Below the pieces are notes generated by a model. That model did not search any database. It saw only the letters and a list, made by a program, of their open reading frames with translations, and had not been told where the DNA came from. The translations under genes and the position numbers were made by a program. Shown here piece by piece: positions 26,078-55,607 of a stretch of 64,000 nucleotides of DNA. This DNA is from Guptibacillus hwajinpoensis (GTDB lineage: Bacteria; Bacillota; Bacilli; Bacillales; Guptibacillaceae): contig NZ_JAIVAE010000002.1 of assembly GCF_020171785.1 (NCBI RefSeq), positions 124,001 through 188,000 on the forward strand, given 5' to 3'. Numbering within the stretch: position 1 is the stretch's first letter; each line of letters opens with the position of its first letter.

Positions 26078-26113
26078 GCATGTGTATGGAATGGAAAAGA
26101 TATGACTAAGAGT

Positions 26114-26280
26114 TCTAACTATCATCCGTTTCTAAACGCTCGTCTCCGCATTTCTTGAGATCCAGCTGCAGTGGGCAGGGTCTCGATCGCTTCACCTTAA
26201 CAAATGAAAACAAAGACCGTGTTCTTTTGTTAAGGCTCCAGTGCCTGCCGTGTCTAACCGCCCACTTCCGCCTTTCGAAC
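26114..26280. repeat. Solitary copy of the structured repeat
   Basis: The stretch 26114-26155 matches the right half of an array unit (as at 54031-54060). From 26156 a nearly complete unit follows, with AGCTGC at 26164 and the apical hairpin CCTTAACAAA/TTTGTTAAGG at about 26196-26234. Compared with array unit 2 the stem pair T-A has become A-T, so pairing is kept. The right arm resembles unit 4 and the left arm unit 2, so it looks mosaic. It fills the gap between the TVP38 terminator and cotJC. Confidence 0.85.
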
Positions 26281-51758: not shown

Positions 51759-53600
51759 TTGTGTGGGATAACGGGATGGGTGGATTGGAAGAAAAGTCTA
51801 ACAGGCGAAGAGAAAGTCCTCCAGCATATGGCGCAAACTTTATCAAAAAGAGGACCTGATGCATCAAACCATTGGGTTGATGGTCATTGTGGATTTGGTC
51901 ATACGCGTTTAGTCGTTGTCGATCCGGCTGGTGGAAGTCAGCCGATGACAAGAAAGCATGGGGAAATCAACTATACCATTTGTTATAACGGTGAGTTATA
52001 CAATACAGAGGATTTACGCAAAGTTCTCCTCGGTAAGGGGTATACTTTCCAATCTCATTCAGATACGGAAGTTCTTTTAACATGCTATGTTGAGTGGGGA
52101 GAGCAGTGCGTGGATCATTTGAATGGTATATTTGCCTTTGCGATTTGGGATGGAGAACGTCTCTTTCTTGCAAGAGACCGACTTGGAGTTAAACCATTAT
52201 TCTATCGTCAAAGTGGAAGTTCGCTTCAATTCGGATCTGAACTTAAAGCGATACTTACGCATCCAGACGTCAAGAAGGAGATCGACCGAGGTGGTTTACA
52301 AGAAATCTTTGGCCTAGGTCCATCTCGTACGCCAGGTCACGGTGTTTTTCGTGGAATCAGTGAGCTCCGGCCGGGATTTGCTATGAAATTTGAACGGAGC
52401 GGAATTCGAATTTGGCGTTATTGGAATGTTGTCAGTACCGAGCACACGGATGACCTTGATACTACGGTGGAAAAGGTTGGCGATCTTTTAAAAGATTCGA
52501 TTAAAAGGCAGCTTGTAGCGGATGTTCCCGTTTGTACGTTTTTATCCGGCGGGGTAGACTCTAGTGCGATTACTTCGGTTGCTGGGCGCGCATTTCAGGA
52601 TGATGGGAAAGGTACGCTTCGCTCTTTTTCCGTAGACTATGTGGATAATGATAAATACTTTAAGAGTAGTGAATTTCAGCCTAATTCAGATGCACCTTGG
52701 ATTAAGAAGGTTTCAGCAGAACTTGCAACAGATCATACGAACTGTGTGATTGACACAGCTCAGCTTGTTCATCATCTAAAAGAAGCGATTGAATGTCGTG
52801 ATCTTCCAGGCATGGCTGACGTCGATTCATCTTTGCTATGGTTCTCAAAGGAAATCAAAAAACACGCAACTGTAGCGCTATCTGGTGAGTGTGCAGATGA
52901 GATCTTTGGTGGTTATCCTTGGTTTCATAAACCAGAGCTATTAGATCAAGAACAGTTCCCATGGATGCGGTCCACTCTTGAAAGACAGGCGATGTTAAAA
53001 GAAGACGTTCGGAATAAGTTGAAATTAGAAGACTACGTGATTGAAAGGTATCGTGAATCGATTCAAGAAACCCCGGCGCTTGATGGCGAAAGTGAAATCG
53101 AAGCAAAAAGAAGAGCCCTCTTTTATTTAAATTTAAATTGGTTTATGACAACGTTACTTGAACGCAAAGATCGTATGAGCATGGGGGCTAGTTTAGAAGT
53201 TAGGGTGCCGTTTTCCGATCATCGCATCATTGAATACGTTTGGAATGTACCGTGGGACATGAAGATGCTTGATGGAAGAGAAAAAGGGCTATTGCGTAAA
53301 GCGATGACTGGAACACTCTCGCATGATGTGCTCTACCGTAAAAAAAGCCCTTATCCTAAAACGTATAACCCGGCTTATACGAAAGCTGTTTCTTCATGGC
53401 TTCAAGATACGCTCAATAATAAGCAGGCGCCACTCCACGAATTAATCGATCAAAAAGTTGTTCAAGAAATTATCGATTCAGAAGGGAAAGCATTTAAAGT
53501 GCCTTGGTTCGGTCAGCTAATGGCGGGGCCACAATTAATTGCTCACCTTGCTCAAATCAATTACTGGATGGAACATCATAACGTGAATTTAGTGGATTAA
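51759..53600 (+). CDS. asnO: Asparagine synthase (glutamine-hydrolysing, AsnO type)
   Basis: A 613-aa two-domain enzyme. The start codon is TTG at 51759 so that Cys follows Met and becomes the N-terminal nucleophile (CGITGWVDW). The glutaminase domain continues with GFGHTRLVVVDP and YNGELYN. The synthetase P-loop is FLSGGVDSSAITS with later SGECADEIFGGYPW and KDRMSMGASLEVRVPFSDHR. It makes asparagine from aspartate, glutamine and ATP, or amidates another carboxylate. In B. subtilis asnO is expressed in sporulation. A terminator follows and the structured repeat array begins 55 nt later. Confidence 0.9.
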   Translation: MCGITGWVDWKKSLTGEEKVLQHMAQTLSKRGPDASNHWVDGHCGFGHTRLVVVDPAGGSQPMTRKHGEINYTICYNGELYNTEDLRKVLLGKGYTFQSHSDTEVLLTCYVEWGEQCVDHLNGIFAFAIWDGERLFLARDRLGVKPLFYRQSGSSLQFGSELKAILTHPDVKKEIDRGGLQEIFGLGPSRTPGHGVFRGISELRPGFAMKFERSGIRIWRYWNVVSTEHTDDLDTTVEKVGDLLKDSIKRQLVADVPVCTFLSGGVDSSAITSVAGRAFQDDGKGTLRSFSVDYVDNDKYFKSSEFQPNSDAPWIKKVSAELATDHTNCVIDTAQLVHHLKEAIECRDLPGMADVDSSLLWFSKEIKKHATVALSGECADEIFGGYPWFHKPELLDQEQFPWMRSTLERQAMLKEDVRNKLKLEDYVIERYRESIQETPALDGESEIEAKRRALFYLNLNWFMTTLLERKDRMSMGASLEVRVPFSDHRIIEYVWNVPWDMKMLDGREKGLLRKAMTGTLSHDVLYRKKSPYPKTYNPAYTKAVSSWLQDTLNNKQAPLHELIDQKVVQEIIDSEGKAFKVPWFGQLMAGPQLIAHLAQINYWMEHHNVNLVD

Positions 53601-53635
53601 GAAAAGGACCGGAGCGATGGGCTCCGGTCCTTTTC
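53601..53635 (+). terminator. Terminator after asnO
   Basis: AAAAGGACCGGAGC-GATGG-GCTCCGGTCCTTTT hairpin with T-run; the array lies immediately downstream. Confidence 0.85.
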
Positions 53636-53700
53636 TATTGGTGTTTATAGTTTAGGGCTCCAAGTGCTTGTTGTTTCTAAACGGGCGCTTCCGCTTTTCG

Positions 53701-53819
53701 TGTCTAGCTGCGCGGGCCAAATCCTCCGGCTGTTTCGCCCTTGCGATTGAGACAAAAAGCGTCTCATTCGAAAGGGCTCCAACATCCTGCGGATTTAGGC
53801 AGGCCCGCTCCGCTTTTCA
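53701..53819. repeat. Structured repeat unit 1
   Basis: Outer stem GCGGGCC/GGCCCGC (53712-53718 with 53802-53808). Second stem AAATCC/GGATTT (53719-53724 with 53791-53796). Apical stem GCCCTT/AAGGGC, CGA/TCG and TGAGAC/GTCTCA around a loop at 53754-53760. Confidence 0.85.
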
Positions 53820-53940
53820 TAGATCCAGCTGCAGTGGGCAGGGTCTCGATCGCTTCACCTTATCAAATGAACACAAAGACCGTGTTCTTTTGATAAGGCT
53901 CCAGCGCTTGTGGACCCTAAACGCCCACTTCCGCTTTTCG
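53820..53940. repeat. Structured repeat unit 2
   Basis: Outer stem GTGGGC/GCCCAC (53834-53839 with 53923-53928). Second stem GGGTC/GACCC (53841-53845 with 53913-53917). Apical stem CCTTATCAAA/TTTGATAAGG and GAACAC/GTGTTC with one U-U mismatch. Confidence 0.85.
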
Positions 53941-54060
53941 TAGATCCAGCTGCGACTCGCAGAAACTGCGATATTTCACTCTTTCACCAGAACACAAAGG
54001 GCGTGTTCTAGTTCAAGAGCTCCAATATCTCCGTTTCTAAACGCTCGGCTCCGCTTTTCG
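53941..54060. repeat. Structured repeat unit 3
   Basis: Second stem AGAAAC/GTTTCT (53961-53966 with 54033-54038). Third stem GATATT/AATATC (53970-53975 with 54024-54029). Apical stem CTCTT/AAGAG and AGAACAC/GTGTTCT. The outer stem is short (CGA/TCG). Confidence 0.8.
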
Positions 54061-54180
54061 TGTCTAGCTGCAGCACCCAGACACTCGGTCACTTCACCTT
54101 TTCATCCGAACACAAAAACCGTGTTCAAATGAAAAGGCTCCAGTGCCTGCCGTGTCTAAACGGGCGCTTTCGCTTTTCGT
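54061..54180. repeat. Structured repeat unit 4
   Basis: Outer stem GCACCC/GGGCGC (one mismatch). Second stem AGACAC/GTGTCT (54079-54084 with 54152-54157). Third stem GG-CACT/AGTG-CC. Apical stem CCTTTTCAT/ATGAAAAGG and GAACAC/GTGTTC around AAAAACC. Confidence 0.85.
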
Positions 54181-54181
54181 T

Positions 54182-55585
54182 TTACCCACTAGTTTTTGCT
54201 TCGGCTGGTTGTTCTTTTACTCCTGGTTCGAGTCCGTTGAGTCGCTCGACTAGGCCGTGGCCGAATGGAGAGGGGGAGGATGGGCTTTCGTTGTTGTTAA
54301 GGATACCGCCTCTAAGTTCGTATGCTGTTGAGCCGTGCTCTGCGAAGTCAAGTCCTTGAATTTCTTCTTCACGCGAAACGCGGATCGAAGAGAAACGAGT
54401 ATAGATGAATAAAAAGGTGCCGACTGTTCCCATTGTCCAGGCCATAACAGCTAGAATTCCAATTGCTTGAACGAGGATGAGGGATGCGCCGCCTCCATAG
54501 AATAATCCGCCATCGATAGCAAATAGTCCGACTGCTAGAGTTCCCCATACCCCACACACACCGTGAACGGCAATTGCTCCAACTGGATCATCCAATTTCA
54601 CGCGACGGTCGATCAGTTGAACGGCTTCAATTAGAATAACTCCAGAAATGAGACCGATAAACATGGCGCCAATCGGGGACACGCTTGCTGTTCCTGCTGT
54701 AATGCCGACTAATCCAGCTAATGCGCCGTTTAGTGTTAAGGAAGCATCAATTTGCTTGTAGCGCACGTAAGAATAAAGGGCACTTCCAATGACACCACTT
54801 GATGCTGAGAGAAGAGTGGTTGCTACGATAGTAGGAATAAGTGCGTCGCTTGCTGAAAGAGTACTCCCTGCATTAAAACCAAACCAACCGAACCAGAGAA
54901 TGAATACGCCAAGAGCGCCGAGTGGAATATTATGTCCTTGAATAACATTGACCTTGCCGTTCGAATATTTCCCAATACGTCCGCCGAGAAACGCTACGGC
55001 AACAACGGCTCCAAGCGCACCAGTCATATGAACGACCGTTGATCCTGCAAAGTCCGTGAAGCCTAACTCTGCAAGCCATCCGCCACCCCAGATCCAGTGG
55101 CCTACGACTGGGTAGACAAATCCAATCATGATCACTGTAACAGCGATATAGCTAATTAGTTTCATTCTTTCAGCTACTGCGCCAGAAATGATCGTTGCAC
55201 AAGTTGCTGCAAAGACGGCCTGGAATACAAAGAATCCAAGATTTTCAGATTGTCCAAAAAGAAAGAAGCCATCACTCCCAATAAACCCGCCCGCTGACGA
55301 ACCAAACATGAATCCGTAACCAACAATGAAGTAAAGAACTGCACCGATCGACATCGTTAGTAAGTTTTTCATTAAAATGTTTAATGCGTTTTTCGAGCGA
55401 GTAAATCCAGTTTCAACCATTGCGAATCCTGCGTGCATAAAGAATACGAGAAATGCAGCAATCATAATCCAAACCGTATCCATTGAAGCACTCAAGGCAC
55501 TGACTTCTGTAGCATCACCTGCTGCGAAGACATGCCCACCTGAAAGAAGGAAGAGAAGAGCGAACAAACCAGTCATTTTTTTCAT
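54182..55585 (-). CDS. amtB: Ammonium transporter AmtB (NrgA)
   Basis: A 467-aa ammonium channel with a cleavable-looking signal segment, then eleven membrane helices. Conserved features are FFMHAGFAMVETGFTRSKN, AGSTVVHMTGALGA (twin-histidine pore first His), FGWFGFNAGSTLSASDA and DDPVGAIAVHGVCGVWGTLA (second His). The C-terminal cytoplasmic tail with GLDFAEHGSTAYE binds GlnK. ATG 55585 is chosen over 55597 because AAAAGG abuts the latter. It is the second gene after glnK; in B. subtilis the order is nrgA-nrgB, so the order is reversed here. Confidence 0.92.
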   Translation of the reverse strand: MKKMTGLFALLFLLSGGHVFAAGDATEVSALSASMDTVWIMIAAFLVFFMHAGFAMVETGFTRSKNALNILMKNLLTMSIGAVLYFIVGYGFMFGSSAGGFIGSDGFFLFGQSENLGFFVFQAVFAATCATIISGAVAERMKLISYIAVTVIMIGFVYPVVGHWIWGGGWLAELGFTDFAGSTVVHMTGALGAVVAVAFLGGRIGKYSNGKVNVIQGHNIPLGALGVFILWFGWFGFNAGSTLSASDALIPTIVATTLLSASSGVIGSALYSYVRYKQIDASLTLNGALAGLVGITAGTASVSPIGAMFIGLISGVILIEAVQLIDRRVKLDDPVGAIAVHGVCGVWGTLAVGLFAIDGGLFYGGGASLILVQAIGILAVMAWTMGTVGTFLFIYTRFSSIRVSREEEIQGLDFAEHGSTAYELRGGILNNNESPSSPSPFGHGLVERLNGLEPGVKEQPAEAKTSG

Positions 55586-55607
55586 CGAATTTATCATCCT
55601 TTTCTTT

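Follow-up and report, generated by a model that had tools for sequence, protein, structure and literature searches.

Between the asparagine synthase gene asnO and a convergent ammonium-transporter gene of Guptibacillus hwajinpoensis lies a tandem array of long hairpin units, and this array and the repeat family to which it belongs are the subject of this report. The window is the whole stretch of DNA analysed, 64,000 nucleotides at contig coordinates C2:124001-188000 of a 4.24 Mb genome in 35 contigs (G000, hereafter the own genome). A preliminary description made from the letters alone had proposed a tandem array with a period of about 120 bp, preceded by one right half. This layout is borne out: four tandem units at window positions 53703-54177 follow a right half, with unit starts spaced by 121, 121 and 118 bases. 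The features of the locus are as follows; unit scores come from a covariance model (R1) built from own-genome copies.

51759-53600: asparagine synthase open reading frame (ORF), left neighbour of the array
53600-53637, plus strand: asnO intrinsic terminator, an inverted repeat with a 16-bp stem and the T-run CTTTTCT
53655-53690 (start approximate), plus strand: 5'-truncated right half at the left array edge, from sequence reading
53691-53702, plus strand: first boundary CCGCTTTTC and linker GTG, from sequence reading
53703-53817 (C2:177703-177817), plus strand: unit 1, class AAATCC, outer stem GCGGGCC/GGCCCGC; R1 96.3 bits, E 3.1e-20
53824-53938 (C2:177824-177938), plus strand: unit 2, main class (GTGGGC / AGGGTC / CCTTATCAAA); R1 127.9 bits
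53945-54058 (C2:177945-178058), plus strand: unit 3, class GACTCGC-AGAAAC; R1 104.7 bits
54063-54177 (C2:178063-178177), plus strand: unit 4, main class (GCACCC / AGACAC / CCTTTTCAT); R1 128.2 bits
54168-54178 (C2:178168-178178), plus strand: exact right edge TTTCGCTTTTC, 3 bases before the transporter ORF end (54182)
54182-55597, minus strand: ammonium transporter ORF, convergent, right neighbour of the array

Judging by other insertion sites described below, the asnO terminator to the left of the array is the probable original target region. The predicted RNA fold of positions 53600-54220, which include this terminator, has a z-score of -11.25, and none of 20 shuffles scored that low. No Rfam family matched the window at gathering score, and the weaker matches over 53500-54300 were far under the cut-offs. 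The stems listed in the preliminary description are present, with two amendments: the outer tier of unit 4 (GCACCC/GGGCGC) holds one A.C mismatch, and the terminal stem of unit 1 pairs over the six bases originally given, with two mismatches beyond them. Internal mismatches also occur in the outer tier of unit 3 (GACTCGC/GCTCGGC).

A single unit measures about 115-118 bases and forms one long multi-tier hairpin. It opens with TC(C/T)AGCTNC, continues through an outer stem, a second stem, a bulged third stem and a variable terminal stem to an almost constant tip (e.g., GAACAC-AAAGACC-GTGTTC), and ends in NCGCTTTTC; the body extends from TC(C/T)AGCT to about GCTTNCG. Units were collected from the own genome by a blastn search with units 3 and 4, which gave 72 matches at E ≤ 10. 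Examination of 33 loci yielded 74 parsed units, 57 of them distinct, and 54 of these were aligned (A1) as the basis of model R1, excluding an irregular L039 unit, a chimeric L051 unit and the unit of L045. By eye, TC(C/T)AGCT and CGCTTTT form near-invariant edges in A1. Arrays commonly consist of a right half followed by complete units, with an eroded left edge and an exact right edge; the array at own-genome locus L375 departs from this layout in opening with a complete unit.

The preliminary description had further claimed that sequence changes in the stems are paired, and covariance-model alignment of many copies confirms this far above shuffled and slid controls. Among the 54 distinct own units, 91.4% of cells are paired, compared to 71.2% in shuffles, and 30 of the 34 stem pairs have changed on both sides; the covariation score reaches 0.577, while shuffles give 0.201 and slid controls no more than 0.142. 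For 147 distinct matches from named records, in an alignment fitted to R1 and hence biased towards the model, the paired fraction is 89.7% versus 58.1%, with both-sided change in all 34 pairs. Within the main class (128 of 232 distinct units), adjusted mutual information is 0.64-0.74 between the two arms of a tier and 0.19-0.51 between neighbouring tiers on one arm; the contrast is smaller over all 232 units (0.64-0.81 versus 0.41-0.73). This class alone contains 22 outer, 19 second and 55 terminal left arms, which excludes the possibility, raised in the preliminary description, that the pairing merely reflects one or two fixed sequences with drift. Covariation of the kind expected of a structured RNA family is present.

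By class make-up, 207 of the 232 distinct units are of one class, 6 are nested-symmetric, 16 are asymmetric and 3 are unclear; the asymmetric units include three chimeras with unmatched halves, all in one array of G009. Tip-centred symmetric exchange was considered as a cause of the paired arms and rejected: with only 6 of 232 units nested-symmetric, it leaves the pairing unexplained. The own genome also holds a second subfamily (L375, L376, L366, L050), with inner arms such as GTCTTAAGTCAA and GGCTCGTCTTAAGC, that lies nearer to the forms of other genera. Mini units of about 45 bases, in which the inner tiers are missing, occur at L044, L043 and L063. As for solo right halves, the pattern YTYCGCTTTTC has 120 sites (34 for a control pattern); among the matches listed, 15 isolated sites, those with TTCCGC or CTCCGC, were read and one proved to be a truncated copy.

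A structured regulatory RNA or 3' untranslated region element, under selection on base pairing in each copy, would account for the strong covariation and folding, for the placement of units downstream of genes, and for the slower change of stems, relative to unpaired columns, over the smallest distances. The mismatches point the other way. Over all 34 stem pairs, G.T and A.C stand at 25:25, 39:41, 33:25 and 166:106 in four alignments (A1-A4), and at 17:20, 27:33, 21:18 and 87:86 once three doubtful pairs are dropped (two that are weakly paired, and one in the outer tier whose A.C count partly reflects misalignment). Restricted to columns with 85% or more Watson-Crick pairing, the counts are 15 and 17, 27 and 30, 20 and 21, and 49 and 49. 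G.T is thus about equal to A.C, compared to 29:3 over all pairs in a control of 27 distinct SAM riboswitches from the same genus, and the tolerance of G.U over A.C that marks a structured RNA family was not found.

Changes counted along a minimum spanning tree of the 232 units, excluding the three doubtful pairs, add to this picture. Steps of up to 3 differences contain 49 one-sided stem changes: 14 to A.C, 6 to G.T, 24 transversional and 5 between two mispaired states. Compensatory changes number 4 at steps of up to 3, 20 at up to 6 and 69 at up to 10. In the last set 35 are transversional, which also speaks against a regulatory RNA, though the share is 8 of 20 and 1 of 4 at the shorter steps. 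The same rival has against it that unit content and number vary at orthologous loci, down to none, and that no Rfam family matches at gathering score, by which membership of a known RNA family is rejected as well. The mismatch, Rfam and turnover analyses gave no sign of a host function as RNA, and we regard an RNA regulator as quite unlikely. Since over the smallest distances the stems change at about half the rate of other columns, their pairing is guarded or corrected, without an RNA-like tolerance of G.U. The preliminary suggestion of selection for an RNA or DNA structure is therefore not supported in its RNA part, given G.T about equal to A.C; some guarding of stems at short distance stands, and need not act at the RNA level.

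Quasipalindrome template switching during DNA replication could likewise make or renew the covariation, with no fold-dependent mobility; recombination would move the copies, which would otherwise be inert. This explanation fits the isolated paired changes, some of them transversional, that separate nearly identical units, as well as the near equality of G.T and A.C, and the slower apparent change of stems could be correction. Such switching has been described as able both to create hairpins and to repair them (PMC8794818). The closest units tell against it: in 70 non-independent unit pairs differing at one or two positions, each of the 32 stem changes affects a single side, with no paired change among them, so double changes made in one step do not dominate. 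An insertion process would, moreover, still be required to spread copies to many sites. We consider template switching a possible but tentative account.

In the own genome R1 found 92 matches at E ≤ 1, 82 of these below 0.001, and each of 12 other genomes of the genus gave at least 45-103 matches at E ≤ 0.01; these counts are lower bounds, with 150 candidates scored per genome. All 13 same-genus genomes searched with R1 therefore carry the family, as do 20 of the 21 genomes overall. The own-genome contigs C1, C2, C23 and C24 break inside arrays, so that the copy number is a lower bound on this count also. One further locus lies in the window:

26108-26275, plus strand: right half (from about 26108) and one unit at 26161-26275 (C2:150161-150275), E 4.0e-23; the tier 2 arms of this unit are unmatched (AGGGTC / GTGTCT)

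Named records of many Bacillaceae and Planococcaceae carry the family, with Pseudalkalibacillus hwajinpoensis providing the top-scoring copy. A scan across genera, which selects for the junction CCGCTTTTC-N-TGTCTAGCT, returned the same layout and junction, among the matches listed, with very different stems in Alkalihalophilus, Anoxybacillus, Mesobacillus, Planococcus, Salimicrobium and Rummeliibacillus, and also in Salsuginibacillus, Lysinibacillus, Shouchella, Jeotgalibacillus and others. Relatives bearing CTTTTC/TCTAGCT in other Bacillaceae, which had been mentioned in the preliminary description, do exist. Plasmid or phage carriage was rejected, as the plasmid and phage collections gave no array match at E ≤ 0.001.

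Comparison of filled and empty alleles locates the insertion point. At three sites with empty alleles, the insert stands in the T-run of an intrinsic terminator, just 3' of the hairpin and in the orientation of the terminated gene. Site A is empty in G009, nearly so in G012, and filled in G000, G005, G007 and G010; the terminator T-run CTCTTTTTTTA of G009 corresponds to CTCTTTTTTTTA-body-CTTTTTTTA in G005, where CTTTTTTTTA stands left of the body and CTTTTTTTA right. At site B, empty in G008 and G011, the junction falls within the T-run. Site C is empty in G003 and G011, and CTTTTCTTAT flanks the insert on both sides in G000, G006, G007, G009 and G010, the filled forms with both edges read; G001 has a variant repeat there. 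At a further locus, L045, the 13-base CTTTTCTTTGTTC lies right of the insert in G009 and G007, and its counterpart on the left is longer by one or two T; this repeat is not intact in G000 and G010. T-rich direct repeats thus surround the insert at sites A and C and at L045, and target duplication upon insertion is supported at these few sites.

The association with terminators extends beyond these sites. Of the 33 own loci, 31 were tested for a strict terminator in the 190 nt to the left of the array: the element strand has one at 13 of them, against 31 of 639 control stretches, and the other strand at 8, against 27 of 639. A looser finder placed a terminator at 25 of the 31 loci, compared to 104 of 288 control stretches, and the left gene, by automatic ORF choice, is co-oriented with the array at 24 of 31. 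Insertion likely targets terminator T-runs. A replication-strand bias as in single-strand transposition was considered but not upheld: array orientation in G010 runs about two to one with replication (by eye, dnaA-based), and gene orientation could explain this. Other short repeats, TTCGCGGAATTATT-type and TTGGCCAATA-type runs, are found at the left flanks of L034, L038, L043, L048, L052, L055 and L063. Another long foldback repeat (TTTCCGCTCC...CTTCCGCTCC, CGCGGGGCGGGC-rich) also follows terminators at L386 (G002), L388 (G021), and L309 and L310, the asnO spacers of G012 and G002.

A T-run target directly after terminator hairpins invites a comparison with retrotransposition, in which a U-tailed hairpin RNA would be primed at the terminator T-run, for instance by the reverse transcriptase of a group IIC intron. 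The variable T-rich duplications and the 5'-eroded left edges opposite exact right edges would agree with such a process. Against it, 9 of the 13 same-genus genomes (G000, G002, G003, G004, G006, G007, G010, G011, G012), all carriers of the element, have no reverse transcriptase domain match; there is no excess of G.U, and the oldest unit may simply have decayed, which would also give an eroded left edge. Reverse transcription would be tenable only with an ancient lost enzyme or one missed by the domain model, and we rate it as very improbable.

At fixed loci, the units themselves turn over. All 17 own array flanks searched together were found in the close relatives G007, G009 and G010, save that G007 gave no match to the left flank of L055. 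At orthologous spacers the array persists, but its units, between none and six of them, differ between species in number and kind. Among the spacers listed, a right half without a complete unit stands at L037, L040, L045, L055 and L061 in G007, at L061 in G009 and at L050 in G010. The asnO spacer itself holds one truncated unit in G007, four units in G009 and six in G010, five of which are nearly identical; G007 and G009 have the right half at the same place as the own genome, and G001, G004 and G006 have an eroded right half alone. Linkers are locus-specific across species (z 10.5; 195/213 boundaries in the linker/core test), more so than body ends (z 3.3-4.8). They also start like the right flank, sharing its first base at 44.1% of 188 boundaries versus 25.5% when permuted (p 0.0008; own genome alone p 0.0066), in a test that leaves out the right flanks of L061 and one of L045 in relatives. 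Stem mismatches are more frequent in leftmost than in rightmost units (6.9% versus 3.7%; 72 arrays, 32 against 20, p 0.02), a comparison that may count some arrays twice.

With moderate confidence, we interpret the family as non-autonomous foldback mobile DNA elements that target terminator T-runs, build tandem arrays, are later reshaped by recombination, and have their pairing kept at the DNA level. A body would insert in the T-run directly 3' of an intrinsic terminator hairpin. The right edge of the insert would again be a T-run, usually CTTTTC, into which further bodies could insert, and this would yield head-to-tail arrays with an old 5'-eroded unit at the left and an exact right edge. Recombination would then account for the observed differences in number and kind of units between species, which at times include tandem amplification, while the short linkers stay locus-specific. 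Arm pairing may be kept because only well-folded copies are mobilised; alternatively, template switching or hairpin-linked repair may copy one arm anew from the other. Mobility had been one of the two readings in the preliminary description, and for the past at least it is now backed by dispersed copies, empty alleles, some T-rich repeats and unit turnover. Its suggestion that copying depends on the fold is possible; units with unmatched halves do occur, as the three G009 chimeras illustrate.

Several observations weigh against the foldback-element interpretation. The flanking direct repeats vary in length from 9 to 13, and a general test for a right-flank repeat beyond the left T-run was negative over 27 loci (3.48 versus 3.41 permuted, p 0.38), so target duplication rests on site A, site C and L045. 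The empty allele of site A in G009 may be a precise loss, because G002, G008 and G021 also carry the element or traces of it there. Under the strict test, 18 of the 31 loci have no left terminator. Across species the nine-base boundary core shows no locus specificity (z 0.8, p 0.22), and the mismatch trend along arrays of at least three units is weak (mean rho -0.105). None of the 17 flanks searched marks a locus that the own genome alone possesses, so the elements may long since have ceased to move, with present turnover due to recombination only. As for the pairing, stems show 0.92 changes per column at steps of up to 3, whereas unpaired columns show 2.52, or 1.73 when six fast columns are set aside, and these slower stems are also compatible with selection acting on resident copies; the difference is weaker at steps of up to 10 (5.29 versus 7.76, or 5.50 without the six fast columns). 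Finally, the 85% filter removes wobble-rich columns and brings the riboswitch control to an uninformative 3:3; the control therefore speaks only unfiltered.

REP/REPIN-like elements moved through single-stranded hairpins by the resident RAYT-type Y1 transposases are a further alternative, and the array units, as hairpin DNA with fixed ends, would suit it. Y1 domain matches are present in 20 of 21 genomes, and the closest counterparts of three own proteins are REP-associated tyrosine transposases, with scores under the curated cut-off. Of the four own Y1 loci, we inspected three for inverted repeats (L350-L352; the fourth is the IS200-like L353): by eye, those at L350 and L351 are other sequences than the family, and L352 has none. 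G017 has Y1 matches without a copy of the element, and G018 has a copy without a Y1 match. To our knowledge, target duplications are not expected for Y1 enzymes, which also counts against this explanation. RAYT mobilisation is not supported, given that the inverted repeats seen at two of the three inspected Y1 genes differ by eye from the family, and we judge it unlikely. The RAYT-like genes L350, L351 and L352 have similar matches in other genomes of the genus, and a GGGCGAAGGGGGTCTGGT hairpin lies upstream of L350.

A bolder form of the foldback-element interpretation, for which we see a possible but distinctly uncertain case, is a Bacillales-wide mobile element recognised by DNA shape, in which only boundary and foldback matter, stems are free to drift provided that both arms change jointly, and each insertion remakes the terminator T-run that is its target. 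If true, it would represent a sequence-free class of mobile hairpins whose covariation has no RNA function behind it. Covariation is the usual proof of a functional RNA, and here a large natural family covaries strongly while its mismatch pattern argues against RNA; the family is thus a test bed for covariation-based RNA-calling pipelines and for how DNA keeps paired arms. If terminator T-runs are the target, it also shows how repeats can spread through compact genomes and leave genes intact. Strains of these Bacillaceae could be typed by the turnover of units at fixed loci.

Overall, this is a foldback family whose general kind is known but whose target and freedom of stems are unusual, and it has no name as far as literature searches reach; those searches, some of which included the boundary letters, found no paper naming it, which is weak evidence given their sparse coverage of subscription journals. 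Group IIC introns, which are catalytic RNAs with a reverse transcriptase, likewise insert just after intrinsic terminators; the array unit differs in its 115 bases and in the absence of a reverse transcriptase match from those 9 of 13 same-genus genomes. Integron attC sites share a fixed boundary motif, a hairpin kept by pairing rather than sequence, and gain and loss beside a fixed edge, but the array family has no cassettes. Classical miniature inverted-repeat transposable elements (MITEs) have terminal inverted repeats, and by eye the ends here are instead TCTAGCTNC and NCG, with varying stems from about 10 bases inside; a target site duplication, as in MITEs, may be present at site A, site C and L045, and the general test over 27 loci was negative. 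Like REP/BIME and REPIN elements, the family consists of clustered intergenic DNA hairpins in genomes with RAYT-like genes. It differs, by eye, in that copies do not flank a RAYT gene at the three own Y1 loci inspected and in that TC(C/T)AGCT and CGCTTTT edges, rather than a GTAG or CGTC foot tag, bound the units in A1; some loci also have T-rich direct repeats.

The bcr repeats of Bacillus cereus are small and intergenic, with many copies per genome and a T-rich motif, TTTAT, linked to movement; they are described as restricted to the B. cereus group, and bcr1 is said to have plasmid copies (PMC6542083). As described, bcr1-bcr3 resemble our family as small, intergenic, many-copy Bacillaceae repeats with a T-rich motif, whereas the array family occurs across many genera, forms tandem arrays with a CTTTTC boundary, has stems that vary and covary, and lacks a match in the plasmid collection. 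Its ends, by eye, are CTTTTC or locus-specific T-runs, not TTTAT. Stem-loop families Bhal-1 and Bhal-2 were reported from B. halodurans in a 2008 survey (PMC2267715). BOX elements of Streptococcus pneumoniae likewise have a variable number of tandem modules, at loci that are common to strains and differ in length (PMC3049150); they are built from three distinct modules with boxB repeated, whereas array units are complete hairpins with the same ends. By these descriptions, membership of the array family in bcr, REP/REPIN or BOX is not shown. In behaviour, its nearest relatives appear to be the bcr repeats, the case in PMC3733652 and the pneumococcal BOX arrays (PMC3049150).
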